A DNA stretch of 21,333 bases, from positions 1-21,333 of IMG/VR virus record IMGVR_UViG_3300042090_002162. The stretch is one strand, 5' to 3'. A program made the position numbers and the translations under genes. The stretch comes from a virus. Shown here one piece after another: positions 1,635-20,755 of this stretch (position 1 is its first letter; each line of letters begins with the position of its first letter). The notes under the pieces were generated by a model, which was given only the letters and a program-made list of their open reading frames with translations, made no database searches and was not told where the DNA came from.

Positions 1635-3281
1635 TTATGCGCCGACCACGAAATCGGTCACATTTATGTTGAAACTGATGGACACGAAACCGTTCTGCGT
1701 GATGTAGACCACGGAGAGGCCGTTGTAGGTGCCCGTCTTGTAGTCCGCGGGGCTCGCCGTCAGGTAGGGAATGAACGGCACGGCGTTCACCACGATCTGG
1801 TCGGAGAAGGTGCCGTTGGACAGCGCCTGACTGAGCTGCGGCCCGGTGTAGGCGGTCTGGATGACGGTGCCCGCGGCCATGCCGAAGGTGATCGCCGAGG
1901 ACATGGTGTTGGCCAGCGTCTGCTGGATGGTGTTGATGCCCTGCTGGTTATAGTACAGCGGGTTGATCGGGTCGTTGCTGCCGTTGATGACCGTGTTCGA
2001 GACGTTGAGGTCAGAGTTGATCTGCGCCCAGTCCACCGAGTACCAGTAGGTGAACTGGCGGCCGTCCATCGTCGTACCCCACAGCAGGATGGCGTCGCTG
2101 ATCCCTCCCTCCGCCCCGGTGCCGACCACGTTGATGTTGGCAGTCTTGAGGGTGGAGAGCAGGGCGCCGTTGCCCTGGGTGGGGAATGGCGTGACGCCGA
2201 ACAGGAAGGAGAACGCGGCCGGCGTGACCTTGTTCGTCGAGCTCGGCGCGTAGTCGAGGGCGTTCTGGAAGTAGGAGGCGGCGCTGAACTCCGTCGAGGG
2301 GATGCCCGCGGACGAGTAGGTGCTGGCCACCAGAGTGCCCAGGGTCGTCTCGGCGCCCAGGGCGGCGGGGACCGCGTAGACGATCGTGGAGCCCGTGGTG
2401 CCGGTGAGGGCCAGGAAGGTGCCGTTGTACCCCACCGGCACGCAGCCGGCGATAGTGAAGTAGTCGCCCGGGACCACGGTGTGGGCCGTGGTAGTGGTCG
2501 CAGTGACCAGGCCGCCCGAGTAGGAGATCGCCGTCAGCACGTTGGCCGGGTAGGCCCCGTAGACCGGGCACTCGATGAATGCCATGACGCACTTCTGCAG
2601 GGTCGTGTAGTTCTGGTACGTGGCCAGCGTGGTGGTGGTGAAGAAGTATGTCTTGGCACTCGTACCCTCAAAGTTCGCCAGCATCGCCAGGTAGTTGGCG
2701 TTGGCGTCCCAGGTCCTGGGCACCAGGTAGGCCCAGAACGTGCCGGGGTTGGCGGTGATCCACGACATAAGGTATGCCACCCCGTCGTTGGGGTTCCCGG
2801 GGCCGAGCTCCAGGACGTAGACCGCCTGTCCCGACCCCTGGGCGAAGAATGTCGTGACCATGGCGAGCAGCTCCGCCACGTCCTCCACGGTGTAGACGAT
2901 GGAGGACCCGGTCGCCGGGCTGCTGGTCGCCGACGGCACCGCGTAGGTGAAGGCGGTGGTGGTGGTCACGGTGGCCAGGAAGGTGCCGTTGTAGGCCGCG
3001 GGCGTCGCCCCCGCCACGGTGACGTAGAGGCTGTCGCCGACGGTGAACCCGTGGGCGCTGGTCGCCGTCAGGGTGGCGGTGCCGGAGATCTGGGTGATTG
3101 AGGTCACGGCCTTGGCACCCTGCAACGCGGTCGTCAGGCTGGAGGCCTGGGTGAGCAGCGTCTTGGTCCCCGGCGCCGTGTTCGTGGCGCCCTGGGAGAT
3201 GAGGGCGCCGGTCTTCTGGAGCGTCGAAGGCGTCGGGGCCACTGTCTGCGTGACACTGACGGTGACGATGGAATTTGTCAT
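1635..3281 (-). CDS. Tail sheath protein (DUF3383-like) with two inserted FCCH-like modules
   Basis: A 548-residue protein with a GAGGAG ribosome site 8 nt before the ATG. The core (about residues 130-245 and 320-548) contains features of DUF3383-type phage sheath proteins: ELGPGNPNDGVAYLMSWI, the TTMDGRQFTYWYSVDW region and the conserved-looking INGSNDPINPLYYNQQGI, then a beta-rich C-terminus. Two small beta modules interrupt it at about residues 58-128 and 248-320; both have the pattern TAxxAHxxxxGDxxxxxG-xPxxYNGTFLA and end TYAVPSA or VYAVPAA. These resemble the FCCH/Ig-like modules often inserted in virion proteins and are probably displayed on the tail surface. Being first of the sheath-tube pair, it should form the contractile outer layer of the tail. 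Confidence 0.82.
   Translation of the reverse strand: MTNSIVTVSVTQTVAPTPSTLQKTGALISQGATNTAPGTKTLLTQASSLTTALQGAKAVTSITQISGTATLTATSAHGFTVGDSLYVTVAGATPAAYNGTFLATVTTTTAFTYAVPSATSSPATGSSIVYTVEDVAELLAMVTTFFAQGSGQAVYVLELGPGNPNDGVAYLMSWITANPGTFWAYLVPRTWDANANYLAMLANFEGTSAKTYFFTTTTLATYQNYTTLQKCVMAFIECPVYGAYPANVLTAISYSGGLVTATTTTAHTVVPGDYFTIAGCVPVGYNGTFLALTGTTGSTIVYAVPAALGAETTLGTLVASTYSSAGIPSTEFSAASYFQNALDYAPSSTNKVTPAAFSFLFGVTPFPTQGNGALLSTLKTANINVVGTGAEGGISDAILLWGTTMDGRQFTYWYSVDWAQINSDLNVSNTVINGSNDPINPLYYNQQGINTIQQTLANTMSSAITFGMAAGTVIQTAYTGPQLSQALSNGTFSDQIVVNAVPFIPYLTASPADYKTGTYNGLSVVYITQNGFVSISFNINVTDFVVGA
2322..2540 (-). other. FCCH-like beta module 2 in the sheath (residues ~248-320)
   Basis: The module reads VLTAISYSGGLVTATT, TAHTVVPGDYFTIAGCVP, VGYNGTFLALTG and TIVYAVPAALGAETTLG. 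YNGTFLA is shared exactly with module 1. The closing AALGA…T pattern is shared with the capsid-associated protein (AAALGAST), which suggests the modules of different genes are related. Confidence 0.6.
2898..3110 (-). other. FCCH-like beta module 1 in the sheath (residues ~58-128)
   Basis: The module reads AVTSITQISGTATLT, then SAHGFTVGDSLYVTVAG, TPAAYNGTFLATV and FTYAVPSATS. The order of a turn with H-G-x-x-x-GD, an AAYNGTF motif and a closing TYAV strand matches the FCCH-type module found in many phage structural proteins. It shares the order of motifs with module 2 of the same protein and with the module in the capsid-associated protein at 7613-8500. Boundaries are approximate. Confidence 0.6.
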
Positions 3282-6576: not shown

Positions 6577-7599
6577 TCATTGGAACTTCATGGAGACCAG
6601 ACGGATGGCCTCCGGACGGACGCCCCAGCCCGAGGTTATGCGCATCTCGGAGAGGACGTCGATCGCGCCGCCGGGGAGTGGCGTCGGGATCTCGCGGGGG
6701 GCCGCCATGTCGCAGAGCTGGAGGGTGCAGGCGTCGAGGCCCGGCGCCAGCTTGGCGAACTCGCTAGTGTTGAAGTCCGAACCCTGGGGTTTCTCGACCT
6801 CAGGCATCGCCACGATGACCAGGTCGGTGCCGTTGGCGCCCTTGCCGATCAGAGTGTCGTCGTACGCCCAGATGATCTCGTCGTCGTTCATCTCGGCGAC
6901 GTCCTTGACCACGCCCGCGGTGGACGTGGAGCCGGCGCCGATCCGCTGGAACTGGACGAGCTGGACGATGTTCTGGTACTCGAACGCACCCAGGACCCGC
7001 TGGGGCCCGAGGATGGTGAACTTGCGCCCGATGCCCAGCTGGTTGGTGGCGGTCTTGATGGCGGAGAGCTGGCTGATCAAGAAGAAGGCCATCTGCCCGT
7101 TGTCGTAGGTGACCACCGTGGTGTTGCCCTGCGAGTCAGGCGGCAGGGGCACGCTGGTGGCGCCGTTGGTGTTCGCCAGGCCCTCGCCGTTGACGGGGTT
7201 GAACCCGTAAAGCAGCGCGGAACGGGCGAGCTGGAAGTGGCCCTGGCGCATGCCGAGGCGCTGGGCCTCGACGATGCTGACGCCCCAGCGGCCCATGGCG
7301 GCGGTGTCGTGGTGGTCGTACTCAGCGCGGACCCGCATGAGGTACGTCGGGGTGGAGATCTGGCTCATGGAGACGCTGACCGAGGGCAGGGCGTTGTAGG
7401 CGGCCTGCCCGGACGCCATCTTGGTGCGGACGTCCACGCGCTTGATGTAGGCCACCAGGTCCCCGTCCGAGAGGCGGACGAGGGGTTCCCCGGTGGGCAG
7501 GAGGTCGAAGGCTCCCGAGGCCTGGCTGTAGGGCAGCAGCAGCTCCGGCAGGGTGTAGGACGGGTTGACCGTCACGAAGGAGGGGGCAATGTTTGGCAT
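6577..7599 (-). CDS. Major capsid protein (DUF2184-like)
   Basis: A 340-residue protein with GAGGG upstream of the ATG. The start (MPNIAPSFVTVNPSYTLPELLLPYSQASGAFDLLPTG trimmed here to its pattern) leads to the DLVAYIKRVDVRTKMASG region and the RAEYDHHDTAAMGRWGVS helix, as in DUF2184-type capsid proteins of Bcep781/AP22-like myoviruses. The middle contains the QLGIGRKFTILGP and VLGAFEYQNIVQLV segments and the C-terminus TSGWGVRPEAIRLVSMKFQ. Size and order after protease/scaffold and before the connectors are those of a HK97-fold major capsid protein. No obvious N-terminal delta domain is present, in keeping with a separate scaffold. Family assignment is from memory of the pattern, not from a search. 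Confidence 0.8.
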   Translation of the reverse strand: MPNIAPSFVTVNPSYTLPELLLPYSQASGAFDLLPTGEPLVRLSDGDLVAYIKRVDVRTKMASGQAAYNALPSVSVSMSQISTPTYLMRVRAEYDHHDTAAMGRWGVSIVEAQRLGMRQGHFQLARSALLYGFNPVNGEGLANTNGATSVPLPPDSQGNTTVVTYDNGQMAFFLISQLSAIKTATNQLGIGRKFTILGPQRVLGAFEYQNIVQLVQFQRIGAGSTSTAGVVKDVAEMNDDEIIWAYDDTLIGKGANGTDLVIVAMPEVEKPQGSDFNTSEFAKLAPGLDACTLQLCDMAAPREIPTPLPGGAIDVLSEMRITSGWGVRPEAIRLVSMKFQ

Positions 7600-8503: not shown

Positions 8504-9427
8504 CTAGGCCTCCTTGCGGGCGAGGTTGAACTTGGTGACCTTCCGGCCGCGCCGGCTGAGGCCTCCGATGAAGGTCCCGCTCCCGTAGAAGGTCACGGTG
8601 CGCTGCCCCGTGGCGGAGTCGACGCGGACCATCTCGCGGAGGACGCCTGACGGCAGGCCCACGGGGTGGAGGGCCGCCTCCTTGGCCGCCTCGAAGATGT
8701 TCCGCTCGGCGATCGAGAGCAGGGCGGAGTCGTTGATGACGCCCAGGTCCACGTCCTTGAACTCGTTGCTGCAGGACTTGAACTTGGAGGCCAGGCGCTT
8801 GCGGTAGGCGAGCACGCTCTCGCCCAGCATCGGGCGGGGGGCGGAGTCGCCGTGCACCTGGTAGACGGCGTCGGCGCGGGCCTGGCTGTCGGCGAAGGCC
8901 TTGCGGTCGTTTTCCGTGGGCTCGGCGGCGCGGGCGGCCTTCAGCTCGTCCAGGAGGACGCGGTCGGCGGGGGTGATGCCCGAGTCCTTGCGGGCGCGGT
9001 CGTCATCGTCGTCGTCCTTACGCTTGGCGTCCTTGCGGTCGTCATCGTCGTCCTTGCGGGCCTTCTTGCGGTCGGCGACGACCTCGGGAGGCATCACGCC
9101 GCCCTCTTCGTCCTCTTCGTCCTTGCGCTTGGAGTCCTTCCGACGGGCGTCCTTGCGGTCGTCGTCATCGTCGTCCTTTGGCTCGTTCGGCTTGGGCTCG
9201 CCCTTGCCGCCCTCGTGGTTCTCCAGGGGGTCGGCGTCCTTGCGCTTGGCGTCCTTGCGGTCGTCATCGTCGTCTTCCTTGCGGTGCTCGATCGAGTCCA
9301 CGCGACTGGACAGGGCGTCCATGCGCTTCCCCACCGAGTCGAGGCAAGAAAGGATCTTGTCCAACTTCTCTCCGGCTTCGGCGTCGCCACGCAACCCCTC
9401 GGCCTTCTCTTTGTCAACTTCCGGCAT
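8504..9427 (-). CDS. Nested in-frame scaffold protein (lambda Nu3-like arrangement)
   Basis: Inside the polyprotein gene, Met358 (MPEVDKEKAEGLRG) is preceded on the minus strand by AGAGGAG with an 8-nt spacer, as strong a ribosome site as any at the true gene starts. Initiation here would give a 307-residue protein holding only the coiled coil, the charged repeats and the C-terminal domain, without Nudix or protease. Such nested scaffolds inside the protease gene are known from lambda (C/Nu3) and many other phages. The start lies exactly where the protease-like part ends, which supports a real function. Not proven: the site could be chance. Confidence 0.6.
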   Translation of the reverse strand: MPEVDKEKAEGLRGDAEAGEKLDKILSCLDSVGKRMDALSSRVDSIEHRKEDDDDDRKDAKRKDADPLENHEGGKGEPKPNEPKDDDDDDRKDARRKDSKRKDEEDEEGGVMPPEVVADRKKARKDDDDDRKDAKRKDDDDDDRARKDSGITPADRVLLDELKAARAAEPTENDRKAFADSQARADAVYQVHGDSAPRPMLGESVLAYRKRLASKFKSCSNEFKDVDLGVINDSALLSIAERNIFEAAKEAALHPVGLPSGVLREMVRVDSATGQRTVTFYGSGTFIGGLSRRGRKVTKFNLARKEA

Positions 9428-10498
9428 AGACGAATCTCCTCTGATGTCTGCCGATACGACGCCGACGGGGTCTCCGCCTTTGTCCCATACACCCTGCGCA
9501 CAGATGGCAAGGTGGTCGAGTAACGACGGCTTTCCCTCGATCAGGAGGGTGTGCCCGTCTTCCATCTCAAACTTGACGTTCCCGCTCCGGGCGCGGAACA
9601 CGACCGAGGGCGAGGTGCTGAGTTGCTCGTCCCGCATCAGCTCCGCGGTCTTCTGGTCGTAGATCTTGGCGATCCCCCAGACCTCCTGGCCCTTGATGTA
9701 GGGCACGAAGACGGCGCCGACGACGCGGTCGGCGTACTCCTTGGAGTCCAGGATGGAGCGGTTCTCGGGGTGCTCGACGATCACCGGGAGGCCGTTGCAG
9801 CGGGCCAGGAACTCGGGCGTCAGGTAGAGCTCCGGCGCCCGGTAGGCGTGCTCGTCGTAGCGCTCGCGGTAGGCCGTGTCCGTGCCCGTGACCCTGAGGT
9901 CGAAAAGCCAGATGTTCTCGTACTGCTGCGGGCTTGTGAGCTCGCCTTCGGCGATGGCCTTGGCGATGTCCAGCTCGTTCATGGTCAGCTTGGCCAGGGC
10001 CACGCGGACCCCCGGGTGGAGGGGCTCGGGTGGCAGGTCGGGCTGCGCCCAGGCGTAGCCGGTGTGCTCGCCCCGGACCTTTGGGATGAAGACCTCGCCC
10101 CCACGGGCTATGAACGTCGTGAAGTCCACGTCCTCGGGGGCGTTCGGGGCCATGGTGGGCTCGTCGCGGGCCGCTTGCTGGGCCACGTCCGGCATCTGAC
10201 CTGGGCCGACGGGGGCACCGCCGGGGGCGGGCTCGTGCTCCAGGGTCTCGGAGTACCCGAAGGGGTTCCTGGCGTCGAGCTCCTTGCGCCGCGCCCACAG
10301 CTCCAGCTCTCCCTCGAAGGGGAAGCCGGTCTCCTCCTCCCACTCGCGGCGGGCGGCCTGCTCTGAGGTCTCGCCTTCCTCGACGTGACCCCCCGGCAGG
10401 CACCACTCGCCCGGGTGGCCCCCGCCAGGTCCCCTCTTGAGGAACAGGGCGGAGCCGTCCTTGGCCAGGTAGAGTACGCCGGCGGCCTTGGTGGTCAT
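8504..10498 (-). CDS. Nudix domain + DUF2213-type prohead protease + scaffold polyprotein
   Basis: A 664-residue multidomain protein. Residues ~1-175 are a Nudix hydrolase domain with an intact Nudix box: G37, E43, R51-E52, E55-E56 and G58 (GGHVEEGETSEQAARREWEE…G). Residues ~195-345 match the DUF2213 prohead-protease pattern, with YDEHAYRAPELYLTPEF, LPVIVEHPE (candidate catalytic His243) and STSPSVVF (candidate Ser). Residues ~360-664 are scaffold-like: a coiled-coil stretch (EKLDKILSCLDSVGKRMDALSSRV), highly charged D5/RKDAKRKD repeats (405-507), then a folded C-terminal part ending KVTKFNLARKEA. It should cut scaffold and capsid proteins in the prohead; the Nudix substrate is unknown. Its start overlaps the previous stop as ATGA, and AAGGA lies 9 nt before it. 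An internal start at 9427 probably gives a separate scaffold. Confidence 0.82.
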   Translation of the reverse strand: MTTKAAGVLYLAKDGSALFLKRGPGGGHPGEWCLPGGHVEEGETSEQAARREWEEETGFPFEGELELWARRKELDARNPFGYSETLEHEPAPGGAPVGPGQMPDVAQQAARDEPTMAPNAPEDVDFTTFIARGGEVFIPKVRGEHTGYAWAQPDLPPEPLHPGVRVALAKLTMNELDIAKAIAEGELTSPQQYENIWLFDLRVTGTDTAYRERYDEHAYRAPELYLTPEFLARCNGLPVIVEHPENRSILDSKEYADRVVGAVFVPYIKGQEVWGIAKIYDQKTAELMRDEQLSTSPSVVFRARSGNVKFEMEDGHTLLIEGKPSLLDHLAICAQGVWDKGGDPVGVVSADIRGDSSMPEVDKEKAEGLRGDAEAGEKLDKILSCLDSVGKRMDALSSRVDSIEHRKEDDDDDRKDAKRKDADPLENHEGGKGEPKPNEPKDDDDDDRKDARRKDSKRKDEEDEEGGVMPPEVVADRKKARKDDDDDRKDAKRKDDDDDDRARKDSGITPADRVLLDELKAARAAEPTENDRKAFADSQARADAVYQVHGDSAPRPMLGESVLAYRKRLASKFKSCSNEFKDVDLGVINDSALLSIAERNIFEAAKEAALHPVGLPSGVLREMVRVDSATGQRTVTFYGSGTFIGGLSRRGRKVTKFNLARKEA
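8978..9286 (-). repeat. Charged low-complexity repeats (DDDDD-RKDAKRKD blocks)
   Basis: Residues ~405-507 of the polyprotein hold four imperfect blocks that alternate runs of five or six Asp with RKDAKRKD or RKDARRKD, separated by spacer segments. In DNA they appear as repeated GTCGTCATCGTCGTC and CTTGCGCTTGGCGTCC words. Alternating acid and base runs suggest an extended or helical polyampholyte within the scaffold; the repeated DNA is prone to copy-number change. Confidence 0.8.
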
Positions 10499-11036: not shown

Positions 11037-13373
11037 TCAGTGGCATTGGACGTAGTAGACGGCGCTTGCGAGGGCCGTCCCGGCAATGGTCACGCCTGAG
11101 GTACTGATGGCGCTGACGTAGGCCCCGGTGGTGCCCTGGGCGGCTGCCGTCGTGTTCCCCGGCGCGAACACGCAGGAGGATGGGGCATTCGTCCAATTGG
11201 CGCTCCCGAAGGTCACGGCGCACGATGTTACCAAAGTGGTCCCAACTGTTAATTTGAAGCTATTGTCCGTGCCGCCCGACGCGATGGTCCCCTGGGTGGT
11301 AGACCCACAGGCATTGTTGGATATTGTGGGCTTCTTGGGGGTGAAGATCGTCAGCTCCACCAAGGCGTTGGGTGTGCTGCTTGAAGTACCGGCTGGCGTT
11401 CCCGAGATGATGATGTCGCCGCCCAACCCTGTGCCGGTGCTAGCGCCGCCTGCGAGGCCAAGGTTGGCACCATTGGCGTTTGACCCGCTCCCGCCGGTCC
11501 CAAAGATGGTGTAGCTGGAGTACTGCGGGGCAGTGGAAGTGACCCCCGCGCCGAAGTAGACGTAATTGATGCGGGCTTGGTCGTCACCCGAGATGAAGGT
11601 ATTCGTCGCGCCCGAGCCCGCCGAGGACCCGGCGTTGTACCCGATGAACGTGTTGTTTGATCCCGTTGCGGCACTACCGGAAGCGCCCCCGATGTACACG
11701 TTGTTCGACGCCGTGGTCGCACTCAACCCGGCGTAGTAACCGAGGAACATGTTGCCGGACCCGGTCGTGAGGGCGTGGCCAGCCTCCCATCCGATCGCGG
11801 TGTTGAGTGCCCCGGTCCCCAGGGTATTCAGGGTGCCCCATCCGATCGCGGTGTTCGATCCGCCCGACATGGTCGCACCCGTCTGGGTCCCGGCGCACGA
11901 GTAGTTGCCGATGCAGACGTTGTTGGTGGACGTGCCGGTGATCGTCCCGGCCGCCGTGCCGATGACGAGGTTGTCACCCCCGGTGGAGGTCGCACTCGTC
12001 GCCGCACTCGATCCGATGTAGATGCTGTTGGCGTCGGTCGTCAGGGAGTTCCCTGCGTGAGATCCCAGATACATGCTGCTGGTGACGCTGGTCGGTCCCG
12101 TCCCGGCGAGTTCGCCAATCATGACGTTGTGGGCGGCGGTCGTCAGGTTGTATCCCGCCTGCAGGCCGATCAGAACGTCGTTCCAGTTCTCCGGGAAGGC
12201 GCAAGCGCCAGCATCGACGTAACTGTAACCGGCCTGGGTCCCGACCAGGACGGTGTCCGAACCGCACGTGCTGCTGTACCCCGCCTGGTAGCCGAGGAAC
12301 GTGTTCCTCCCGCCAGACGTGAGGGCCTTGCCGGCCTGGTAACCCATCAAGGTGTTGCCGGCAAAACTCTGCCCGGAGGGGTTCGTGGTGAGTGCCGCGC
12401 CCGCAGATGTCCCCACCGCGATGTTGCCGTTGCCGGTCATCACCTGGTTCCCGGCTCCCGAACCCATGAAGATGTGGTCGGAGACGATGGTCTGACCGAT
12501 CGGTATCGCGCCCTGCTTGACGTACGTAGACCCGTCCGTCTCGACGAAGTGGTCCTGGTTGTCCTGCGGGATGACGACGCCGTTGCCGACGGGGGAGTCT
12601 GAGGATGTGCTGATGTCCACCGTCACGCTATAGGCGCCGGTCGTGTTGTTCCTGAAGATCCACTGCTGACTCTGGGTCAGGTACGTCCCGTTGGTCATCA
12701 GGTACGTCTCGTTCTGGGCCAAGGTGCCGGTCAGGACGAAGGTGAAGGGTGCGGTGTTGAAGGGGACGGTCGCCTGGCACCCGGTCGAAGCGGTGTAGCC
12801 CGTGCCGCCGTAGAGGACGTTGAGAGAGGCCACGCCGCCAGACGACACGGAGGCCACCTGGAGCACCGCGTCGTTGTTCGACCCGGTCTGCTGGCACTGG
12901 ATGGCGTCGCCCGCCTTGTAGGCGGTGGTGGAGCCCCCGGCGCTCAGGACCGAGGCCCCGGTGATGGCACCGTTGGAGACGGTGTTGACGAAGAGGATCG
13001 CGTAGGGGGCGCCTACGGAGGAGAACGAGATCGTACCGACCGTGTCGTTGGACACGTTGAGCGGCGTCAGCGACATCGACAGGTAGATGGCGGCCTGCAG
13101 CGTCGCGCCGTTCACCGCCGAGGTCCCGGAGTAGTAAGAGGGCTGGGTCGCCACGGTGGGTGCGGAGGTCCACGAAGGCACGCCCCCGGAACTCTGGCTC
13201 AACACGCCCGTCCCGTTGGACAGCCCGGTGACCGTGGACCCGGCGGCGGAGTAGTAGCCCAGGTTGTTCTGGGCGCCCGGCGCCACGGAGCCCGTGCCGG
13301 CCTGGTAGGTGTTGGCGGCGAACGCGGGGGAGGCGAGGACCAGGACCGCCAGGGGGGAGAGGTACTTCTTCAT
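11037..13373 (-). CDS. Secreted-looking YadA-head-like repeat protein, probable fibre or adhesin
   Basis: A 778-residue protein. Residues 1-19 form a textbook Sec signal peptide (MKKYLSPLAVLVLASPAFA, cleavage after A-F-A). Residues ~20-300 are beta-rich with GGTGYTAS and low-charge threonine/glycine content. Residues ~299-608 contain about fifteen N-x-[FILV]-[IL]-G-x-x-A-G repeats (GNTLMGYQAG, NTFLGYQAG, NTAIGWEAG, NNTFIGYNAG), like the left-handed beta-roll of YadA head domains. The last ~100 residues (PKKPTISNNACGS, CAVTFGSANWTNAPSSC, VYYVQCH) match a C-terminal domain I have seen on phage fibre-like proteins in metagenomes. No membrane anchor is visible, so it is not a complete autotransporter. 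It lies between minor head and scaffold genes, 2 nt after the previous stop, with only a weak ribosome site (GGGG, 8-9 nt). Could be a head fibre or an exported adhesin. Confidence 0.7.
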   Translation of the reverse strand: MKKYLSPLAVLVLASPAFAANTYQAGTGSVAPGAQNNLGYYSAAGSTVTGLSNGTGVLSQSSGGVPSWTSAPTVATQPSYYSGTSAVNGATLQAAIYLSMSLTPLNVSNDTVGTISFSSVGAPYAILFVNTVSNGAITGASVLSAGGSTTAYKAGDAIQCQQTGSNNDAVLQVASVSSGGVASLNVLYGGTGYTASTGCQATVPFNTAPFTFVLTGTLAQNETYLMTNGTYLTQSQQWIFRNNTTGAYSVTVDISTSSDSPVGNGVVIPQDNQDHFVETDGSTYVKQGAIPIGQTIVSDHIFMGSGAGNQVMTGNGNIAVGTSAGAALTTNPSGQSFAGNTLMGYQAGKALTSGGRNTFLGYQAGYSSTCGSDTVLVGTQAGYSYVDAGACAFPENWNDVLIGLQAGYNLTTAAHNVMIGELAGTGPTSVTSSMYLGSHAGNSLTTDANSIYIGSSAATSATSTGGDNLVIGTAAGTITGTSTNNVCIGNYSCAGTQTGATMSGGSNTAIGWGTLNTLGTGALNTAIGWEAGHALTTGSGNMFLGYYAGLSATTASNNVYIGGASGSAATGSNNTFIGYNAGSSAGSGATNTFISGDDQARINYVYFGAGVTSTAPQYSSYTIFGTGGSGSNANGANLGLAGGASTGTGLGGDIIISGTPAGTSSSTPNALVELTIFTPKKPTISNNACGSTTQGTIASGGTDNSFKLTVGTTLVTSCAVTFGSANWTNAPSSCVFAPGNTTAAAQGTTGAYVSAISTSGVTIAGTALASAVYYVQCH
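11550..12479 (-). repeat. YadA-like N-x-x-x-G-x-x-A-G repeat region
   Basis: Residues ~299-608 contain about fifteen imperfect repeats with a spacing of roughly 16-28 residues and conserved N, I/L/V, G, and A-G. The spread in repeat length and the loss of DNA identity between copies show old repeats kept for a beta-roll structure rather than a recent expansion. Repeats at residues ~371-400 carry Cys insertions (STCGSDT, GACAFPENW). Confidence 0.7.
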
Positions 13374-13375
13374 CT

Positions 13376-13723
13376 TCAGGACCCCGAGACCACGATGGCC
13401 ATGCCGCTGACCGTGGCGGTGGACCCCGACGTGTTGGTGAGGGTCACCTGGAAGGAGATGGCCGGGAAGCCGTCGTTCACCGCGGTCCAGCCGGCGGTCG
13501 AGGCGACCAGGGTGGTGCTGACGGCGGCGCCGACGGGGATGGTCCCCGCCACGTCCGCGTAGCGTTGGATGGCGAGCGTGCCCGCCTGGGTCATGGTCGC
13601 GGCGACGTTGATGCCGTTGCCCCCGAGCTGGATGACGCCGGAGGTGTAGACGCCACCCCCCGCCAGCGTGGCGGGGTACGGGGTGGGGGGCGTGATCACG
13701 TAGTTTGAACCTAGGCCTGGCAT
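13376..13723 (-). CDS. Small beta-rich virion protein
   Basis: A 115-residue protein beginning MPGLGSNYVITPPTPYPATLAGG. Its ATG lies 13 bp inside the 3' end of the minor head gene in a different frame. Residues 25-115 are an all-beta domain (GVIQLGGNGINVAATMTQAG, LAIQRYADVAGTIPV, FPAISFQVTLTNTSGSTATVSG). This pattern of VAATMTQAGTLxxQRYADxAGT plus a TLTNTSG strand is one I have seen repeatedly in phage genomes. A decoration or fibre-associated role is likely given that the next gene is the YadA-like fibre. No signal peptide. Confidence 0.65.
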   Translation of the reverse strand: MPGLGSNYVITPPTPYPATLAGGGVYTSGVIQLGGNGINVAATMTQAGTLAIQRYADVAGTIPVGAAVSTTLVASTAGWTAVNDGFPAISFQVTLTNTSGSTATVSGMAIVVSGS

Positions 13724-14556
13724 GTCCAGCTCTTCCTCGTCACGGATTGGGCCTCGTCGAGGGCCTTCCGGCCCTTCTCGGTGAGCATCTCCGGGGGCAA
13801 CGCCCCCAGGGAGTAGAGGTACGTGTAGAAGCACCTGCAGAAGACGAACTCTCCCGGCTTCTCGACGTCGTCGGCGTAGCCGGCCTTGCCGGGCTTCACC
13901 AGCCCCCGCTCCTTGGCCCAGGAGGACCTCAGGAGGAAGACCTTGCCGTCGCGTGCCTTGTGCTCCGGCCGGTAGTCGTAGTTGGCCTGCAGGTGGTGGT
14001 CGTGCCACACGCAGGCGATGGCGTTGTTGGCCTCGGCGACGAGCTCGGAGATGGAGGCCCGGAGCTTGTGGCCCTGGTCGATCAGGACGCGGCGCTCCTC
14101 GAAGGGGAGGTCCGCGAGGGACTTGCGGATCGCCACCTTCTCCTTCGTCCGGTCCACGACCTTGGAGCCACCCGCGGGGACCGAGGTGGTCCACCCAGCG
14201 AAGCGGCGGAGGGTGGACTCGATCGCCTGGTTGCGGTTTAGACGGATCAGGTCGGCGCTGGCGAGGATGCGGCGGTCGAGCTCCAGGCGGAGGCGTGGCG
14301 CCAGTCGGTCCAGGGTGAACCTTGAAACGCCGGGGTGGAGTCTCAGCACCTGACCTCTGCCAACCAGCTTCTCGTAGACGGCCGTGAGCGCGTCCCTCAG
14401 GAGGCGCTCCATCTCGATCGGCGGCCTCAGGCTGCGGAGCGCGGCGTCACGCAGGCGCTGCTGCCAGTCGGCCAGGCGGGAGGTCCCATCGAACCCGTGT
14501 TCGGAGACGTCCCTCACGGCCTCGGTCAGCACGTCGTAGAAGGTCTCATCAGCCAA
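13711..14556 (-). CDS. Minor head protein (Mu gpF / SPP1 gp7-like head morphogenesis)
   Basis: About 281 residues from a TTG start at 14556 (LADETFYDVLTEAV), preceded by GGGAG with a 7-nt spacer and overlapping the stop of the 67-residue gene. An in-frame ATG at 14604 is possible but adds a proline/arginine-rich leader and lacks a good site. Residues ~85-125 are a helical, arginine-rich part (RFTLDRLAPRLRLELDRRILASADLIRLNRNQAIESTLRRFAGW). The C-terminal half contains NNAIACVWHDHH, YDYRPEHKARDGKVFLLRSSWAKERGLV and EFVFCRCFYTYLY. The H/C-containing ARDGKVFLLR…FCRC pattern is typical of Mu gpF-type minor head proteins, which act with portal and scaffold in prohead assembly. It follows the portal by one small gene, as expected. 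Confidence 0.7.
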   Translation of the reverse strand: MADETFYDVLTEAVRDVSEHGFDGTSRLADWQQRLRDAALRSLRPPIEMERLLRDALTAVYEKLVGRGQVLRLHPGVSRFTLDRLAPRLRLELDRRILASADLIRLNRNQAIESTLRRFAGWTTSVPAGGSKVVDRTKEKVAIRKSLADLPFEERRVLIDQGHKLRASISELVAEANNAIACVWHDHHLQANYDYRPEHKARDGKVFLLRSSWAKERGLVKPGKAGYADDVEKPGEFVFCRCFYTYLYSLGALPPEMLTEKGRKALDEAQSVTRKSWTCQA

Positions 14557-14752
14557 TCCGACACTCCCGGAACGAGGCGGCGACCGCGTCGGCGTAGGCC
14601 TCAAAGAAGCACAAGGCCTCGAAGCGACGCTGCTCGGCCACCTCCCACTCGCCCCCCTGACAGGCGCGGCCGAAGGCGTTGAGGGCTTGACAGAAGGCGT
14701 CCATCGCGCCCAGGGCGGAGGACGCAGCGGCCATGGCGGCGCGTTGGGTCAT
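14549..14752 (-). CDS. Small hypothetical protein after the portal
   Basis: A 67-residue protein beginning MTQRAAMAAASSALGAMDAFC, with a strong GGAGG ribosome site 8 nt before its ATG and starting 2 nt after the portal stop. It is helical and alanine-rich with three Cys residues (C21, C31, C48 approximately, plus CRIG at the end), with no metal-binding spacing that I can recognise. Its stop overlaps the TTG start proposed for the next gene, which suggests coupled translation. Function unknown. Confidence 0.6.
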   Translation of the reverse strand: MTQRAAMAAASSALGAMDAFCQALNAFGRACQGGEWEVAEQRRFEALCFFEAYADAVAASFRECRIG

Positions 14753-14754
14753 GC

Positions 14755-16245
14755 CTAAGACCTCCTCCCAAGGACCTTGAGGATGGCGCCACGGGTGGAA
14801 GCGGAGTCGTGGAGGGCCATGGGTTCGGGTTCGCGTGGCCCTTCGCCATCCGTGGCCCCAGGCTCCGGGGTCGGGGGGACGTAGTCAGCGAGGGCCTCGG
14901 CGTCGAGCTCCAGGGGCTGGGGCATCAGGATCTTGAGGCTGTTGAAGCTGTCCGCGGCCCACTGCACGAGGGTCGCCTTGTTGGCGGGGTCGAGCGCGGG
15001 CATCAGGACCTCAACCATCGAGACCACGGCCTCCATCTTGACCTTGTCGACCTCGACCTTCTTCGAGTCCGGCTCCGTGAGGAACGACGGGAAGGTGGCC
15101 TTGAAGGCATTCTTCCACTCGTAGAAGGCGGTGTTGAAGTCGACGTCGGCGTACTGGTCGGGGAACTGCTCCTGGATCGAGGCGTAGAATTCGGGCGTCC
15201 AGGCGCGGCGCATGCAGACCTGGTCGAAGAAGTCGTAGAGGGTGTGCATCTGCCTGCGGATGCGGTCCACGTAGTGAGCCACCGCCTTGGCGTCTTCGGT
15301 GCCTTCCCCAAAGCCCTCGGCGAAGGTCTCGGAGTTGAGCAGCTTGGCGGGCATGCCGTCCGACGCCGCGGCGATGTTGTCGATGATGTTCTTGCGGGCC
15401 ATCGAGGCCGCGCCGTCTAGGTTCTGCAGGTTGAGCGACTCGATCGCCTCGTCCTTGCCGATGCTGATGACGTTGTTGTTGCGGGCCATCTTGATGGCGA
15501 CGCGCTTGATGGCGCCCACCGCGGCCATAGCCTGGTTGATGATAGAGCCCGGCTGCTCCAGCTTGGCGACGAGGACCCCCGCCTTGCGGCTCACGAAGTC
15601 GTCCGTCAGCATGGTTTGCAGGAACGAGCGCAGGAGGAAGAACGGGCGCTGGTAGACGGAGCGGCCCACGAAGCCGAAGGCGCTCGTGGTGAACTCGATG
15701 TACAGGGGGTCCTCGTTCAGCACGACGACGGTGCGCGACGGGTGGAAGGTCTTCCCCTGCACGCTGACGTGCGAGTGCTTCATGAAGTCGGGCGACAGCG
15801 GGTTCTGGTTGAATACCAAAGACCCGGACGTGTTGAGCGGGTCGAACTCGCTGAAGAAAAGCTTGTAGTCCTTGACCTTCTCTGGGTCCACCGGGTCCCT
15901 GGGCTCCAGGCCCTCAGCCATCAGCGCCACGGTGGAGATGCCGTAGATGCGGGCCAGGCGCATGGTGCGGGCGATGTGGTCGTCAGCGCCGATGTCGACC
16001 CAAGCCTTGAGGAAGGCCTCCTTGACCTGCTCCTCGGGCGAGCCCGGGACCTCGATCTCGCGGGACTGGCTCATGGCCAGGTTGATCGGGACGTCGACGA
16101 GCTTACCCCCCAGGGGGTGGTAGGCGTAGATCGTCTTGCAAATCTGGTAGGACGGCGCCGCGCCGGGGACGATGTCGTCGCACTCCAACATCTCCATCAG
16201 GGCGGTGCCGGCCGACGTCCCGTTGATCTCCACCGAAGCGGTCAT
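14755..16245 (-). CDS. Portal protein (DUF1073-like)
   Basis: About 496 residues from an ATG at 16245 with AGAGGAAG upstream; the same frame upstream looks like antisense nonsense. It begins MTASVEINGTSAGTALMEML and includes motifs of DUF1073-type portal proteins: YQICKTIYAYHPLGGKLVDVPI, DHIARTMRLARIYGISTVALM, FHPSRTVVVLNEDPLYIEF, GRSVYQRPFFLLRSFLQTM, and the helix GEGTEDAKAVAHYVDRIRRQMHTLYDFFDQVCMRRAW. Expected size for the family is close to 450-500 residues. It should form the dodecameric ring at the head vertex, through which DNA is packaged by the terminase encoded just upstream. The C-terminal ~60 residues (proline/glutamate-rich then GAILKVLGRRS) look disordered. Confidence 0.83.
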   Translation of the reverse strand: MTASVEINGTSAGTALMEMLECDDIVPGAAPSYQICKTIYAYHPLGGKLVDVPINLAMSQSREIEVPGSPEEQVKEAFLKAWVDIGADDHIARTMRLARIYGISTVALMAEGLEPRDPVDPEKVKDYKLFFSEFDPLNTSGSLVFNQNPLSPDFMKHSHVSVQGKTFHPSRTVVVLNEDPLYIEFTTSAFGFVGRSVYQRPFFLLRSFLQTMLTDDFVSRKAGVLVAKLEQPGSIINQAMAAVGAIKRVAIKMARNNNVISIGKDEAIESLNLQNLDGAASMARKNIIDNIAAASDGMPAKLLNSETFAEGFGEGTEDAKAVAHYVDRIRRQMHTLYDFFDQVCMRRAWTPEFYASIQEQFPDQYADVDFNTAFYEWKNAFKATFPSFLTEPDSKKVEVDKVKMEAVVSMVEVLMPALDPANKATLVQWAADSFNSLKILMPQPLELDAEALADYVPPTPEPGATDGEGPREPEPMALHDSASTRGAILKVLGRRS

Positions 16246-16259
16246 GCGTGTCTTCCTCT

Positions 16260-17570
16260 TTAGAACCCTTCCGGGTCTCCGAGCGCTACGGCGACGCCGT
16301 AGCAGAAACAGTCGAGCAGGTCGTCCGCCCTGGTCGCCGCGTCTTTGTCGCCCACGTGGAAGGTGGTGACCTGGCGGAGCAGGTGGTTCTGCGTCTTCTC
16401 CTTGAAGTTCACCACCTTGTCGTACGCGGGCTGCGTGAACTTCACCTTGCCCTGGTACACCTTGCCGGACACGCCGATCGCGCGGGCGTCCTTGCCGAGG
16501 CTGGTGAGCTTCGAAGGGCAGGCCTGGGCAGGCCACCCCTTGTTCCTGGCGTTCTGGAGCAGGATCGTGCCGACGTTGGCGTCTTCTATGTAGGCGCCGA
16601 TCGAGCCCGCGCGGACCTTGGTCCTTCGGGCGAGCTCCTGGAGGTTCTCGAAGACCGTCATGAGCCAGGTCTCCAGCATGGAGCCCTCGAACATGACGAT
16701 GTCCCAATCCAAGATGACCAGGGGGTGCCCTATCTGCTGCGACACGCCCCAGTACACCACGGCTGTGCCGTCGTGCTCCTTGCCCCCTTTGATGCTCGTG
16801 TCTACCGTGGCGAACACGGCGTCGAGCAGCGGGGGGATGGGGACGGGGGAGCCGTCCACCAGCAGGCTTTCCTCGGCGAAGATGGACACGCCCGAGAAGT
16901 CGACGAAGGACCCCTCGTACTCCTGCTGGAATACCTTAGGATGCATGTCCCTGCGGGCGGCCTCGATCTCGGCAGCGGGGAGGATGTCGGCAGAGAACCA
17001 GGAGAAGGAGCCCCACTCGCTCTCAGAGCCCCTGAGAGCCATCTCGGCCTTGGCCTGCAGGTCCTTGTCGTAGTAGTGGTTGCGACCCTCGGGGACGCCG
17101 ATCAGGTCGCACCAGCCGTTGCGGTCCGCGAGCGCGGGGCGGACGTTCTCGCTCCAGGCGCCCTCCTTCATGTTGCCGTACTCGTCGAGGATGCCGCCGT
17201 CCCAGGGGCTGCCCTCGATGCGCTCGGGCTTGTCCATGCCCAGGACATGGAGTTCGGCGCCGGTTATCAGGGGGATGATGAGGTCGGACTCGTAGGGGTC
17301 GCGGCTCATCAGGTCCCTCGGCACCATGGCCTTGAGGTCCTGCCAGTAGATCCGCTTCGCCTGGGCCACCGTGGGGGCGGCGCAGAAGAAGCGGGGGTTG
17401 TCGAACTTGGTCCCTTTGAGGGCGTTCTTCACGACCTTGCGCTTGGCGAGCTCGGTCTTGCCTGAGCGCCTACCCGCAGGGACCACGTTGAAGCGGTGTG
17501 GGCTGTTCCAATAGGCGGCCTGCACGGGGTGGTACTTGAGGGTGGTCCACCTACTCGTCAGGATCGACAC
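16260..17570 (-). CDS. terL: Terminase large subunit (ATPase and nuclease)
   Basis: A 436-residue protein starting with GTG (17570), preceded by GAGGA with an 8-nt spacer; the upstream gene's 3' end overlaps it by 20 bp. The N-terminal ATPase has Walker A at residues 32-39 (AGRRSGKT), a C-motif-like region before 160, and Walker B at 127-130 (ILDE). The C-terminal RNase-H-like nuclease has its acids at D257 (TVDTSIKGG), E329-D330 (YIEDANVGT) and D416/D417 (ATRADDLLDCF). All catalytic residues appear intact. It packages DNA into the prohead through the portal encoded just downstream and cuts concatemers. Length fits other compact large terminases. Confidence 0.9.
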   Translation of the reverse strand: MSILTSRWTTLKYHPVQAAYWNSPHRFNVVPAGRRSGKTELAKRKVVKNALKGTKFDNPRFFCAAPTVAQAKRIYWQDLKAMVPRDLMSRDPYESDLIIPLITGAELHVLGMDKPERIEGSPWDGGILDEYGNMKEGAWSENVRPALADRNGWCDLIGVPEGRNHYYDKDLQAKAEMALRGSESEWGSFSWFSADILPAAEIEAARRDMHPKVFQQEYEGSFVDFSGVSIFAEESLLVDGSPVPIPPLLDAVFATVDTSIKGGKEHDGTAVVYWGVSQQIGHPLVILDWDIVMFEGSMLETWLMTVFENLQELARRTKVRAGSIGAYIEDANVGTILLQNARNKGWPAQACPSKLTSLGKDARAIGVSGKVYQGKVKFTQPAYDKVVNFKEKTQNHLLRQVTTFHVGDKDAATRADDLLDCFCYGVAVALGDPEGF

Positions 17571-18198
17571 AGGTCTTTTCCTCTATCTCCAGGGTCATGT
17601 CCCTGAGCCGCTGGGCGAGGGAGCGGACCTCCTTGTCCTTGTCGCTCGGTTCCTTCAGGGGTTCCTCCCACTTCTCCTTCCAGTTCGCCCGCTGGCGGTT
17701 CTTCAGCCAGTAGATCTGGGCGGTGGAGTCTGGGGGGTAGTACTCGGTGTAGGGGACGCGGACCACCTCGTGGTTCTTCGCGTCGTAGAAGATCTTCTCG
17801 GCCGGTCTCTCGTAGCCCTTGGCCTTCCGATACAGACTCGCCACGATCTCGGAGTCCGCCTCCTCGCGGCCTGCCCTGAGGGCAACGGCGAAGGAAGGGT
17901 GGCCGACGATCCAGGTCTCCACCGTCATCTCTGAGACGCCGAAGTACTTGGCTAAGTCGTAGTTGGTGTGGCCGAAGAGCGCCATCCTGAACGCCGCGTC
18001 ATCGTGGTACGGCTGGTCGTAGATAGGGGGACGGCCGGCTATCTTCGGGAGGTCCAGGTCTACCGTCGGTTTTGCCGGGCGGTCACCCGTCGACTTCTTC
18101 TTGCGTTGGCCACGGGGGAGAGGGGGGAGCTTTTTTAACTTAGCGGGCTTCGGCGCCGTGGGTTCAGCCGCCGGCTCCGCAGGCTTGCGTGGGGGCAT
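17551..18198 (-). CDS. terS: Terminase small subunit
   Basis: A 215-residue protein. Residues 1-50 are proline/lysine-rich and probably disordered. Residues 58-101 contain a helix-turn-helix (RMALFGHTNYDLAKYFGVSEMTVETWIVGHPSFAVAL shown here in pieces: GHTNYDLAKYFGVSE and MTVETWIVGH), then a helical oligomerisation stretch (REEADSEIVASLYRKAKGYERP) and the TEYYPPDSTAQIYWLKNR…NWKEK motif that is characteristic of phage small terminases. It should recognise the packaging start site on phage DNA and stimulate the large subunit. It is the first gene after the nusG-like gene and the tandem 23-bp repeats. Ribosome site GAAGGTG is moderate. Confidence 0.85.
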   Translation of the reverse strand: MPPRKPAEPAAEPTAPKPAKLKKLPPLPRGQRKKKSTGDRPAKPTVDLDLPKIAGRPPIYDQPYHDDAAFRMALFGHTNYDLAKYFGVSEMTVETWIVGHPSFAVALRAGREEADSEIVASLYRKAKGYERPAEKIFYDAKNHEVVRVPYTEYYPPDSTAQIYWLKNRQRANWKEKWEEPLKEPSDKDKEVRSLAQRLRDMTLEIEEKTCVDPDE

Positions 18199-18214
18199 GG
18201 CGGCACCTTCGAGA

Positions 18215-18271
18215 ATAGGTAAGGAACGCTGACCTAAATAGGTAAGGGACGCTGACCTAAATATTTAAGGG
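18215..18271 (-). repeat. Two tandem 23-bp direct repeats plus a degenerate third, between nusG-like gene and terS
   Basis: Copies 18215-18237 and 18238-18260 differ at a single base (AAGGAACG versus AAGGGACG) and abut exactly. A partial third copy (ATATTTAAGGG) follows at 18261-18271. Each unit is a hyphenated palindrome with arms TAGGT and ACCTA. They lie 17-73 bp upstream of the terS start in the transcript direction, in an 85-bp gap that is otherwise empty. They could be operators, a recruitment or pause element for the NusG-like factor encoded just upstream, or packaging-site elements for terminase. No clear -35/-10 pair accompanies them. Confidence 0.8.
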
Positions 18272-18283
18272 TATCAGGAAAAA

Positions 18284-18874
18284 TCAGGCATAGAGCCGTT
18301 TGATTTGGCTGCGCTTGAGTTCCAGTTGGGTGGAGGCTCCGAGCATCGTCATGAGGACGAACACCCGGTCCCTGGCGCTGCGCTCGACGACCGCTTGGAG
18401 CGAGGAGAATGGGCCTTCGACGATGGTCACCTCCTCGCCTGTCTCGATGGGCTGGTACTCAGGCCTCAGCCTGACCACCTCGGCCTTCTCGCCTCCGCAG
18501 GCGTCCATCAGCTCGACCATCTTCTGGCCGTCGACGCGCCAGGGCAGCGGGTCCTGCTCCCCATGGGCCTTCTCGCCAGGCTTGGCGCCGAGGACCATGA
18601 CCACGCCCTTGGCCCACATGACCTTCTTCCAGGAATCGTCTGAGAGGTCCAAGAGGACGAACAGGTAGCGGGGGAACATCGGCTCCCACTTGAGCTGGGT
18701 GAGAGGTCCCACCTTGGAGTGGCCGCAGCTCTTCGTCAGCGGCTGGGTGGCGAGCATCGGCAGGTACGTCCTGAAGCCGGTGTCCTGGAGTGCCTTCGCC
18801 GCCGTCCTCTCCTCTCCGGGGTGCGTGTACGCGCAGCACCACACCTCGGGGGTCGAGAACTGTCGGCGATCCAT
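18284..18874 (-). CDS. NusG/RfaH-like transcription elongation or antitermination factor
   Basis: A 196-residue protein from ATG 18874 (MDRRQFSTPEVWCCAYTHPG), preceded by AAAGGGG at 5 nt. Residues ~10-95 match the NGN domain: VWCCAYTHPGEERTAAKAL, GFRTYLPML, then the very typical PMFPRYLFVLLDL. Residues ~140-196 are a KOW-type C-terminal domain: PIETGEEVTIVEGPFSSLQAVVERS and LKRSQIKRL. This is the RfaH/NusG-specialised-paralogue layout. Such factors bind RNA polymerase's clamp and suppress pausing and termination over long operons. It is first in the virion operon, 85 bp before terS with tandem repeats between, and behind a strong promoter, so a role in reading through the long structural operon is inferred. 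Not general NusG, since the operon context is phage. Confidence 0.85.
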   Translation of the reverse strand: MDRRQFSTPEVWCCAYTHPGEERTAAKALQDTGFRTYLPMLATQPLTKSCGHSKVGPLTQLKWEPMFPRYLFVLLDLSDDSWKKVMWAKGVVMVLGAKPGEKAHGEQDPLPWRVDGQKMVELMDACGGEKAEVVRLRPEYQPIETGEEVTIVEGPFSSLQAVVERSARDRVFVLMTMLGASTQLELKRSQIKRLYA

Positions 18875-18930
18875 GAATACCCCTTTAGTTATCTTCCGAT
18901 AAATTAAGCAGACATGCTCCGCCACACCTC

Positions 18931-18944
18931 GGAGCCTGAGCTCC
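18931..18944 (-). promoter_or_regulatory. 5' leader hairpin before the nusG-like gene
   Basis: GGAGC, loop CTGA, GCTCC form a perfect 5-bp stem in the ~100-nt leader between the minus-strand promoter and the nusG-like start. A second short inverted repeat, CCGCC-G-GGCGG, lies beside it (18949-18959). Together they could fold the 5' end of the virion operon transcript. No function can be assigned. Confidence 0.4.
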
Positions 18945-18979
18945 CATCCGCCGGGCGGCGAAGCTCGACGGGCAGGGGG

Positions 18980-19008
18980 ATTATACCCCATGCGGGGGTG
19001 GATGTAAA
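18980..19008 (-). promoter_or_regulatory. Near-consensus sigma70-type promoter for the leftward virion operon
   Basis: On the minus strand, TTTACA (19003-19008) and TATAAT (18980-18985) are separated by exactly 17 bp. This is a 5/6 and 6/6 match to consensus. Transcription should start near 18973, about 100 nt before the nusG-like start. The -10 box sits in a short palindrome (GGGG-ATTATA-CCCC on the plus strand), which may bear on regulator binding or melting. Confidence 0.75.
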
Positions 19009-19338
19009 CGCGAACGGGCGACGGAGGCCGGGTGGAAACGGCAAAACGGGCTGAAATCTAAAAGGTTAAGCTTTTCAAAGGGTTATTTTCTCAAACTGTT
19101 TCCATTTTGAATGTTTTTGGAAAATATTGTTGTTTTTCAATAGGTTATAAGTGTTTTTTTCTCTTCTAACTCCTAATAGAAAAAAAGAAATTATATATGT
19201 ATATATTATATAGAATAATAATAATAAGATATATAATTCTTCTTTCTCTTAGTAGCTTTCGACGACGTTTTTTGAGTCTCCGATATAAGTGCTTGAAACA
19301 GATGATAAACAAGGTTTTGAAAACACACACTTACAAGC

Positions 19339-19374
19339 TTTTTCGCCTCTCGGCGCCGCCAGAAGGCAAAAAAT
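19339..19374. other. Inverted repeat with T- and A-flanked stem
   Basis: TTTTTCGCCT (from 19339) and AGGCAAAAAA (to about 19374) form a stem with one interior mismatch around a central CGGCGCCG palindrome. Because the T run is 5' and the A run 3' on both strands, this is not a simple intrinsic terminator with a U tail, but an A-T extended stem. Function unknown. Confidence 0.4.
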
Positions 19375-19611
19375 GCGCTTCGCAGCTCTTATATGTTTTC
19401 AATCCCCCCACCCCATGACGGCCCAAAAGTACACACCACTTTTGCCGAGTTTAGCTAGTACGTTGATCTTGAAGGGTAAAAGGCTTGTATCACTTACGAC
19501 AAAACCGATAAAATTTTTAATCCAAGAGACCTCAGAGGCGCGTCGCCTGTACCCACTTTTCGACCTATCTTTTCGTTTACAAAAAATGCACAATTTAACC
19601 CTTTGTTAAGG

Positions 19612-19639
19612 TTCAACAAACCACTCTTTCAGTTATAAT
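19612..19639 (+). promoter_or_regulatory. Candidate promoter for the rightward genes
   Basis: TATAAT at 19634-19639 is a perfect -10 box on the plus strand. The matching -35 (TTCAAC at 19612-19617, 16-bp spacing) is weak (3/6), so an activator may be needed. A start near 19646 would give a ~215-nt leader before the GTG at 19862. Another weak AT-rich candidate (-35-like TGTACA at 19757-19762, -10-like TATTAT at 19779-19784) lies closer to the gene. Confidence 0.45.
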
Positions 19640-19660
19640 ATCTTTACACTTATTAACGCC

Positions 19661-19680
19661 ACAGCGCTGTACCGGCCGGT
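19661..19680. promoter_or_regulatory. Two abutting perfect 10-bp palindromes (operator candidate)
   Basis: ACAGCGCTGT (19661-19670) is followed at once by ACCGGCCGGT (19671-19680). Both are perfect 10-bp palindromes. They lie about 15 bp downstream of the expected rightward start site, where a repressor could block transcription. A T run follows (19679-19684), but palindromes without loops make weak terminators. Confidence 0.45.
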
Positions 19681-19723
19681 TTTTCTCGCCGCACTTCTAA
19701 CTGTCGTCATCCACCCCCTTCGC

Positions 19724-19756
19724 AAAAACAGGATTCCTCCCGCCTGTAAAAACAGG
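19724..19756 (+). promoter_or_regulatory. Possible alternative-hairpin leader element
   Basis: AAAAACAGG occurs twice (19724-19732 and 19748-19756) with CCTGT between (19743-19747). CCTGT can pair with either ACAGG, giving two mutually exclusive 5-bp stems in the leader of the rightward genes. It is short and may be chance. Confidence 0.35.
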
Positions 19757-19861
19757 TGTACAAGTGATTAAATTAATATATTATATGCCTTGCCGCTCCA
19801 CCGACGGGGCGCCGAGACCGAAGATCTAAGAGGCTTAAAGGCCGTCCGGAGGACCTAGACC

Positions 19862-20326
19862 GTGGTGAAGAGTACGATAGATCCGCACGCCATGACCGAC
19901 CTGCAGAGGCGCCTCGCCCTCAGGTCCTACCTCTTGAGGACTGTGCCGAGGCAGTTCTGCCTCGTCCCCGTCGAGCAGGCCCGCCGGGCGGGGATGCAGA
20001 GGCACTTCGGCCCGGACGAGATGGGCCTGGGTCCGGACGAGCTGAAGCTGGAGTCCACGCGGAGGTTCCTAGCGGTGCAGCACTACCTGGGGGGGCCCGC
20101 CCCGGAGGACCTGGAGGCGACTCCCCCCGCAGGCTACGCCGGGAGGCGGGAGCCCGTGTTCGTCGTGTCCTCCCTCCAGGACCCCGAGAAGAAGGACTCG
20201 GAAGTGGTGGGGTGGGAGGCCCTGGCCTCCTGCGTCGACCTGAGTGCCAACACCTGCCGCGTCTACTGCTCCAGGGGCGTCGACGGGTTCAGCACCAGGC
20301 GCCACGTCGTGAAGCGTAAGATTTGA
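19862..20326 (+). CDS. Hypothetical protein with possible C-terminal helix-turn-helix
   Basis: About 154 residues from a GTG start (19862), with GGAGGA and an 8-nt spacer; a second GTG follows immediately. The N-terminal half is arginine-rich and helical (MTDLQRRLALRSYLLRTVPRQFCLVPVEQARRAG). The C-terminal segment (residues ~115-154: VGWEALASCVDLSANTCRVYC, then SRGVDGFSTRRHVVKRKI) resembles NUMOD1-like or other short helix-turn-helix units of phage DNA-binding proteins. It is the first gene after the AT-rich control region with palindromes, so a regulator acting there is possible. No family is recognised with confidence. Confidence 0.65.
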   Translation: MVKSTIDPHAMTDLQRRLALRSYLLRTVPRQFCLVPVEQARRAGMQRHFGPDEMGLGPDELKLESTRRFLAVQHYLGGPAPEDLEATPPAGYAGRREPVFVVSSLQDPEKKDSEVVGWEALASCVDLSANTCRVYCSRGVDGFSTRRHVVKRKI

Positions 20327-20372
20327 CGCCGCCTAAGGAAGACATTGAACAGTCACAAAAGGAGTACGAAGC

Positions 20373-20744
20373 ATGCGTATCAGCAAACCACACCAGGGTC
20401 ACCAGGGGGACGTCTACCTCCGCCAGGTGGAGTCCCTCCCCGCGGACGCCGAGGCCGTCGGAGCCACGACCGACTTCGTCGTAGCCGACGGAGCCCCGCC
20501 TCCCCGCCTGGAGCGGCTGGTCCTCGCCGAGGGCGAGGTCACCGGCCACGCCCACGCCGTCCACTCGGGCGCCGTCATGTTCCGCGCCGACGAGGGGCTC
20601 GGCACCTACCTCTGGACGGCCGATGGGGGCGCCCAGGTCTCCCACGAGGAGCACGCGCGGGCGGACCTGCTGCCGGATGCCATCTACGAGGCGGTCATCC
20701 AGAGCCAATACGAACCAGATGAGATCAGAAACGTCGCAGACTAG
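20373..20744 (+). CDS. Small protein of a widespread uncharacterised family (HAHAV…HEEHA)
   Basis: A 123-residue protein with AAGGAG 8 nt before its ATG. It has a recognisable pattern: QGDVYLRQVESLPADAEAV at the N-terminus, LVLAEGEVTGHAHAVHSG in the middle, VSHEEHARADLLPDAIYEAVIQSQYEP near the end, and IRNVAD at the C-terminus. I recall proteins of this pattern in many bacterial and phage genomes, often beside a larger protein like the next gene. The His-rich HAHAV and HEEHA motifs on a beta-rich fold suggest a cupin-like, possibly metal-binding protein. Function unknown. The next gene follows at once with its own AGGAG site. Confidence 0.75.
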   Translation: MRISKPHQGHQGDVYLRQVESLPADAEAVGATTDFVVADGAPPPRLERLVLAEGEVTGHAHAVHSGAVMFRADEGLGTYLWTADGGAQVSHEEHARADLLPDAIYEAVIQSQYEPDEIRNVAD

Positions 20745-20755
20745 GAGTTAAGATC

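Follow-up and report, generated by a model that had tools for sequence, protein, structure and literature searches.

A NusG-like gene at the head of a phage virion operon, a probable late-gene antiterminator

Does a NusG-like gene that stands first in a long phage virion operon control the transcription of that operon? Late-gene control has mainly been worked out for systems based on Q, on sigma factors and on phage polymerases. From sequence comparison and structural models we propose, with a probability of about 0.7, that a specialised NusG paralogue would serve the phage described here as its late-gene processive antiterminator, doing the job that Q does in lambdoid phages.

The NusG-like protein and the operon behind it

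The window, i.e. the whole stretch of DNA analysed, is an IMG/VR record of 21,333 bp carrying the genes of a contractile-tailed phage. Its NusG-like gene and the recognisable virion genes that follow it are:

18284..18874, minus strand: NusG/RfaH-like protein, 196 aa; NGN at about residues 10-125, KOW at about 146-193
17551..18198, minus strand: terminase small subunit, terS (phrog_309, 1.9e-31)
16260..17570, minus strand: terminase large subunit, terL; GTG start, overlaps the end of terS (Terminase_6N 2e-7, phrog_2 2e-35)
14755..16269, minus strand: portal protein; start codon just inside these coordinates (Phage_portal_3 5e-16, phrog_146 1e-51)
13711..14604, minus strand: head morphogenesis protein (phrog_324, 6.7e-19)
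11037..13373, minus strand: virion structural or fibre-like protein with YadA-like repeats (phrog_6002, 4e-13)
8504..10498, minus strand: Nudix-DUF2213-like fusion, head region (NUDIX 4.6e-17, phrog_6216 3e-141)
6577..7599, minus strand: major capsid protein (MCP), the query for finding related phages
1635..3281, minus strand: tail sheath (myovirus), distal in the nusG-headed operon (phrog_205, 1.3e-28)

The nusG open reading frame begins with an ATG preceded by AAAGGGG, and its GC content by codon position (0.62/0.44/0.88) follows the same pattern as the adjoining virion genes, which indicates a resident coding gene. The first-pass annotation had read its product as an NGN and KOW protein, to be compared with RfaH and NusG by structure prediction, and both domains were recovered. 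The NGN domain matches Pfam NusG (PF02357; E=4.4e-12, 46.8 bits against a cut-off of 22.2). The KOW domain is weak by HMM (KOW2_Spt5 0.0056, under the cut-off), and in the AlphaFold2 model it forms a beta-barrel at residues ~148-193 with a pLDDT of 91-95. In the model as a whole (mean pLDDT 85.7) a flexible linker joins the NGN domain to this barrel, which superposes on the C-terminal domain of NusG (2mi6) at 1.3 A across 55 columns. Foldseek returned NusG and RfaH as top matches of the predicted model (E 4e-13 to 1e-9) and, in a viral library, uncultured-phage proteins named NusG or RfaH. PHROG 6386, a "transcription antiterminator", matches residues 10-193 of 196 (1.7e-19), and a profile of the window protein with 18 relatives found E. 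coli RfaH as the best PDB entry (1e-26), followed by NusG (2e-23). On this evidence of sequence and model the window protein is a member of the NusG/Spt5 superfamily with NGN and KOW domains, and would be expected to bind elongating RNA polymerase.

Among the NCBIfam models the order was RfaH, then UpxY and NusG, all under their curated cut-offs. The equivalog scores of RfaH (68.9 against 144.5 bits) and of housekeeping NusG (55.3 against 135.7 bits) were missed, as were the curated scores of UpxY (56.4 against 100 bits) and LoaP (22.3 against 125 bits). The secE-nusG-rplK neighbourhood is absent from the window, the neighbours of the gene being phage genes.

nusG heads a leftward operon of at least 18.9 kb with terminase, portal, capsid and tail genes. 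All recognisable genes from 18874 to base 3 (terS, terL, portal, head morphogenesis, MCP, sheath and others) lie on the minus strand, and as the record stops at 21,333 bp the operon extends past the end of the fragment. The earlier description of a leftward operon of about 19 kb that begins with nusG holds within the limits of the fragment, the genes beyond nusG diverging on the plus strand. Rfam and tRNA searches of the window gave no matches. Two products of the operon have features worth recording: the 778-aa product of 11037-13373 carries an apparent Sec signal peptide (MKKYLSPLAVLVLASPAFA), odd for a virion gene within the head gene block, and the Nudix-DUF2213-like fusion (8504-10498) bears long acidic/basic repeats of the KDDDDDRKDAKRKD type. 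On the rightward side, dense 24/36/60/84-bp tandem repeats at 21032-21333 give an open reading frame that leaves the contig a C-terminal repeat of the DDATRIAT type.

Candidate control elements around nusG

The following elements flank the gene:

18991..19861, no strand: AT-rich intergenic region without convincing genes, parting the leftward operon from the rightward genes
18980..19008, minus strand: candidate sigma-70-type promoter, TTTACA-17-TATAAT, 11/12 match; predicted start ~18973
18875..18973, minus strand: 5' leader of ~100 nt at the operon start, predicted to be structured (-39.7 kcal/mol, z = -1.7)
18214..18271, no strand: 23-bp unit in 2.5 tandem copies, located between the nusG stop and the terS start

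The intergenic region upstream of nusG has 37% GC versus ~65%. Two promoter-like sites were found in 17400-21333 with 1.0 expected, and the candidate listed, which ends 106 bp upstream of the nusG start codon, is the sole one on the operon strand. The fold of the leader, equalled by 11 of 200 shuffles, is suggestive of moderate structure. The repeat unit reads TATTTAGGTCAGCGTYCCTTACC on the operon strand, each unit being an imperfect GGTMAG-N5-CTKACC dyad, and in shuffled sequences the expected number of such tandem repeats is 0. The repeat could be a cis element, i.e. an operator, a loading site or a terminator; it has no exact copy elsewhere in IMG/VR, and 18 other gaps between NusG and terL hold no repeat comparable to it. 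The ops element of RfaH is absent from the leader beyond chance-level matches. An ops-like GGCGGAGCATG in the leader was considered as a loading site (local p=0.017) but was rejected, dozens of equal or better scores occurring across the window; the related phage G031 has a better ops-like match, 273 nt ahead of the start.

The earlier proposal that a specialised NusG controls the virion operon gains partial support, chiefly from comparative genomics and also from homology and structure prediction. No recruitment element was found, ops-like matches being at chance level and the 23-bp repeat private to the window. This absence favours an alternative in which the protein is a general elongation factor, replacing host NusG on most polymerases and lessening Rho silencing of all phage (xenogeneic) transcripts, with no dedicated operon and with a place before terS that reflects timing only. 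NusG-Rho silencing of foreign DNA is itself established (PMC7819879), and the gene lies in the early region of some relatives. Against a general factor stand the missed housekeeping nusG cut-off (55 vs 135.7 bits), a strong association in position with the virion operon and the two relatives that have Q ahead of terS, both described below, and we regard it as unlikely.

Recurrence before the terminase genes and alternation with Q

Relatives of the window phage by capsid protein include Klebsiella, Yersinia, Pantoea and Shewanella phages and 229 IMG/VR stretches. In an unbiased scan of the entire records of 50 relatives, picked by capsid protein alone, NusG was present in 16, and in 10 of those 16 it precedes terL by 95-1129 bp on the same strand, leaving space for little beyond terS. 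After removal of one near-duplicate, 10 of 15 non-redundant carriers have NusG before terL against 0.3 expected under random placement (P ~1e-14). Portal-based searches added seven loci of this kind (L143, L168, L173, L190, L196, L204, L221), and two unrelated phages, Bradyrhizobium phage ppBjS10J-1 and Synechococcus phage MinM1, also carry NusG upstream of terS-terL; together with the window there are 20 same-strand cases lying 95-1129 bp ahead of terL. Rhizobial phages phiLM21 and RHph_TM3_3_3, likewise unrelated, have the gene a few genes further upstream of terS, and GenBank names their proteins "NusG-like transcription antiterminator". A search for the gene upstream of the terminase in related phages, the check suggested in the first-pass annotation, thus shows it to recur directly before terS-terL on the same strand in many of them. 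The homologues are not scattered far from virion operons; a minority occupy the early region, 3-11 kb upstream of terL.

In G034 (with its near-duplicate G035), G013 and G019 the distance to terL is 6-11 kb with mixed-strand genes between, so that autoregulation from the first position is not general. In G029 and G023 NusG lies at the far contig end, which a circular or permuted genome would place upstream of terL. The proteins of G034, G013, G019 and G023 form a subclade (40-60% identical) whose genes lie in the early region after a gene for 500-600 aa, away from terL, a placing like that of Q as a delayed-early gene. Left out of the counts were the NusG-like genes of a related group, L074, L200 and L239, which adjoin terL on the opposite strand and score under the Pfam cut-off; they are divergent to terL and 35-60% identical to one another. 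Apparent phage NusGs in Microcystis phage MaAM05 and in three faecal contigs were discarded, the sequences being bacterial secE-nusG-rplK or nusG-rplK segments and one UpxY-like gene. The GenBank 'phage' records L249, L250 and MW495066 (MaAM05) hold bacterial nusG-rplK or secE-nusG-rplK-rplA, which likely reflects contamination or misassembly.

The phage paralogues are highly divergent. Most pairs are less than 30% identical, the nearest distinct pairs reaching 40-60%; the window protein has a top identity of 27-28% to any paralogue, no close relatives of it were found in viral_contigs, and the family is too divergent for an alignment-based scan. That such divergent proteins are encoded in the same place argues for a function there. 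The tree contains no single supported clade of phage copies apart from bacterial NusG and RfaH, and as its deep branches are poorly resolved and the window protein forms a long branch, a single origin is not claimed; the history may be one of several captures or of very fast evolution. Such a tree, which allows several acquisitions, and the absence of the gene from many relatives would suit a captured host gene with no operon role (a moron) or a negative regulator of the operon. Of 92 loci with 1.5 kb or more of upstream sequence, 15 had the gene, and its absence from most relatives also counts against the late-antiterminator reading. The repetition of the same slot and strand across divergent lineages and a composition like that of resident genes speak against a moron or a negative regulator, and we give this pair of readings very little weight.

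The same position is occupied by Q in two enteric relatives. Yersinia phage vB_YenM_29.18 (phrog_753, 1e-59) and a Raoultella prophage (phrog_304, 2e-95) encode a Q-like antiterminator upstream of terS, and both have capsid, terminase and portal genes homologous to those of the window. One set of virion genes thus has Q in front of it in some lineages and a NusG in others, which supports, without proving, an equivalence of role. In most relatives lacking NusG, the scanned genes upstream of terL included none recognisable as a known antiterminator.

Proposed mechanism and comparison with known systems

In the mechanism that we propose for late antitermination, host RNA polymerase would start at the promoter 19008-18980 and transcribe nusG. 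The NGN domain of the product would clamp the elongating host polymerase near the operon start and, by outcompeting host NusG, would let it escape NusG-Rho silencing and pausing, as the known biology of NusG and RfaH suggests. The phage NusG would then travel with the polymerase across the terS-terL-portal-capsid-tail operon of at least 18.9 kb. Since the operon to be served begins with nusG itself, expression would be self-reinforcing. Intrinsic-terminator-like sites are few on the operon strand, so Rho or pausing is the likelier obstacle; that antitermination is needed on such an operon is assumed here.

The KOW domain may in addition recruit ribosomes. This could even be the chief function, with the polymerase-bound KOW domain bringing ribosomes to late mRNAs and antitermination being secondary: its predicted fold is a beta-barrel, the shape in which the KOW domains of RfaH and NusG bind S10, and RfaH has a translation role (PMC7819879). 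The operon genes have apparent ribosome-binding sites of their own, however, and coupling is compatible with the late-antiterminator reading; as the main function we consider it improbable. The late-antiterminator reading might be extended to a widespread class of NusG paralogues, repeatedly acquired by phages in the role of Q in many environmental phages and loaded through an element peculiar to each lineage, of which the 23-bp repeat of the window would be an example, although we put this forward tentatively, at somewhat less than even odds.

The available portions of three NusG-family papers (PMC7819879, PMC6391919, PMC7593976) list bacterial and plasmid paralogues and do not mention a phage-encoded one, and a search of the open literature, subscription papers and preprints being outside its scope, found no functional study of phage NusG-like antiterminators. 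The PHROG and GenBank antiterminator names indicate that the protein class is not new. The putative processive antitermination system of the earlier claim, distinct from lambda Q or N, is supported as regards the NusG/RfaH fold, but phage NusG-like antiterminators had already been named (PHROG 6386, GenBank rhizobial phages). What appears to be unreported is that such genes recur at the front of the late operon and alternate there with Q, and a phage NusG before the virion genes is probably a little-studied late-gene switch. If so, phages would turn a version of a host silencing cofactor against Rho, the expression of long virion operons in many uncultured phages without Q would be explained, and the range of specialised NusGs would extend beyond the bacteria and plasmids covered in those portions. 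Cultured carriers (MinM1 and the rhizobial phages) make the idea directly testable.

Among known systems, E. coli RfaH shares the NGN and KOW domains, is the best profile and NCBIfam match and is also tied to long foreign operons. It differs in being ~22% identical to the window protein, which misses the RfaH cut-off and whose leader yielded no ops element, in having an autoinhibitory alpha-hairpin as its C-terminal domain where the window protein is modelled as a beta-barrel (a prediction that leaves a second fold possible), and in a gene that stands alone, whereas the window nusG adjoins its presumed target operon. In this last respect the window resembles LoaP, TaA and UpxY, which are encoded beside the long operons they are thought to serve (PMC7819879); their targets are bacterial antibiotic or capsule operons, in contrast to a phage virion operon. 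In the Caulobacter gene transfer agent, GafZ is the antiterminator of a 14-kb virion-like cluster and is described as working with host NusG, NusA and NusE without being a NusG itself, and a direct-repeat terminator right after the first gene is overcome by the antiterminator (PMC11150451). Those repeats are 150 bp long, as against 23 bp in the window, where a terminator role would be by analogy only. The proteins of PHROG 6386, phiLM21 and RHph_TM3_3_3 are NusG-like, phage-encoded and upstream of terS-terL, as in the window; they are known by annotation only and are far from the window protein in sequence (18% identity). Q loads at a DNA element of the promoter. Lambda Q and Q-like proteins belong to an unrelated family, but share with the window NusG both the presumed role and the place upstream of terS.
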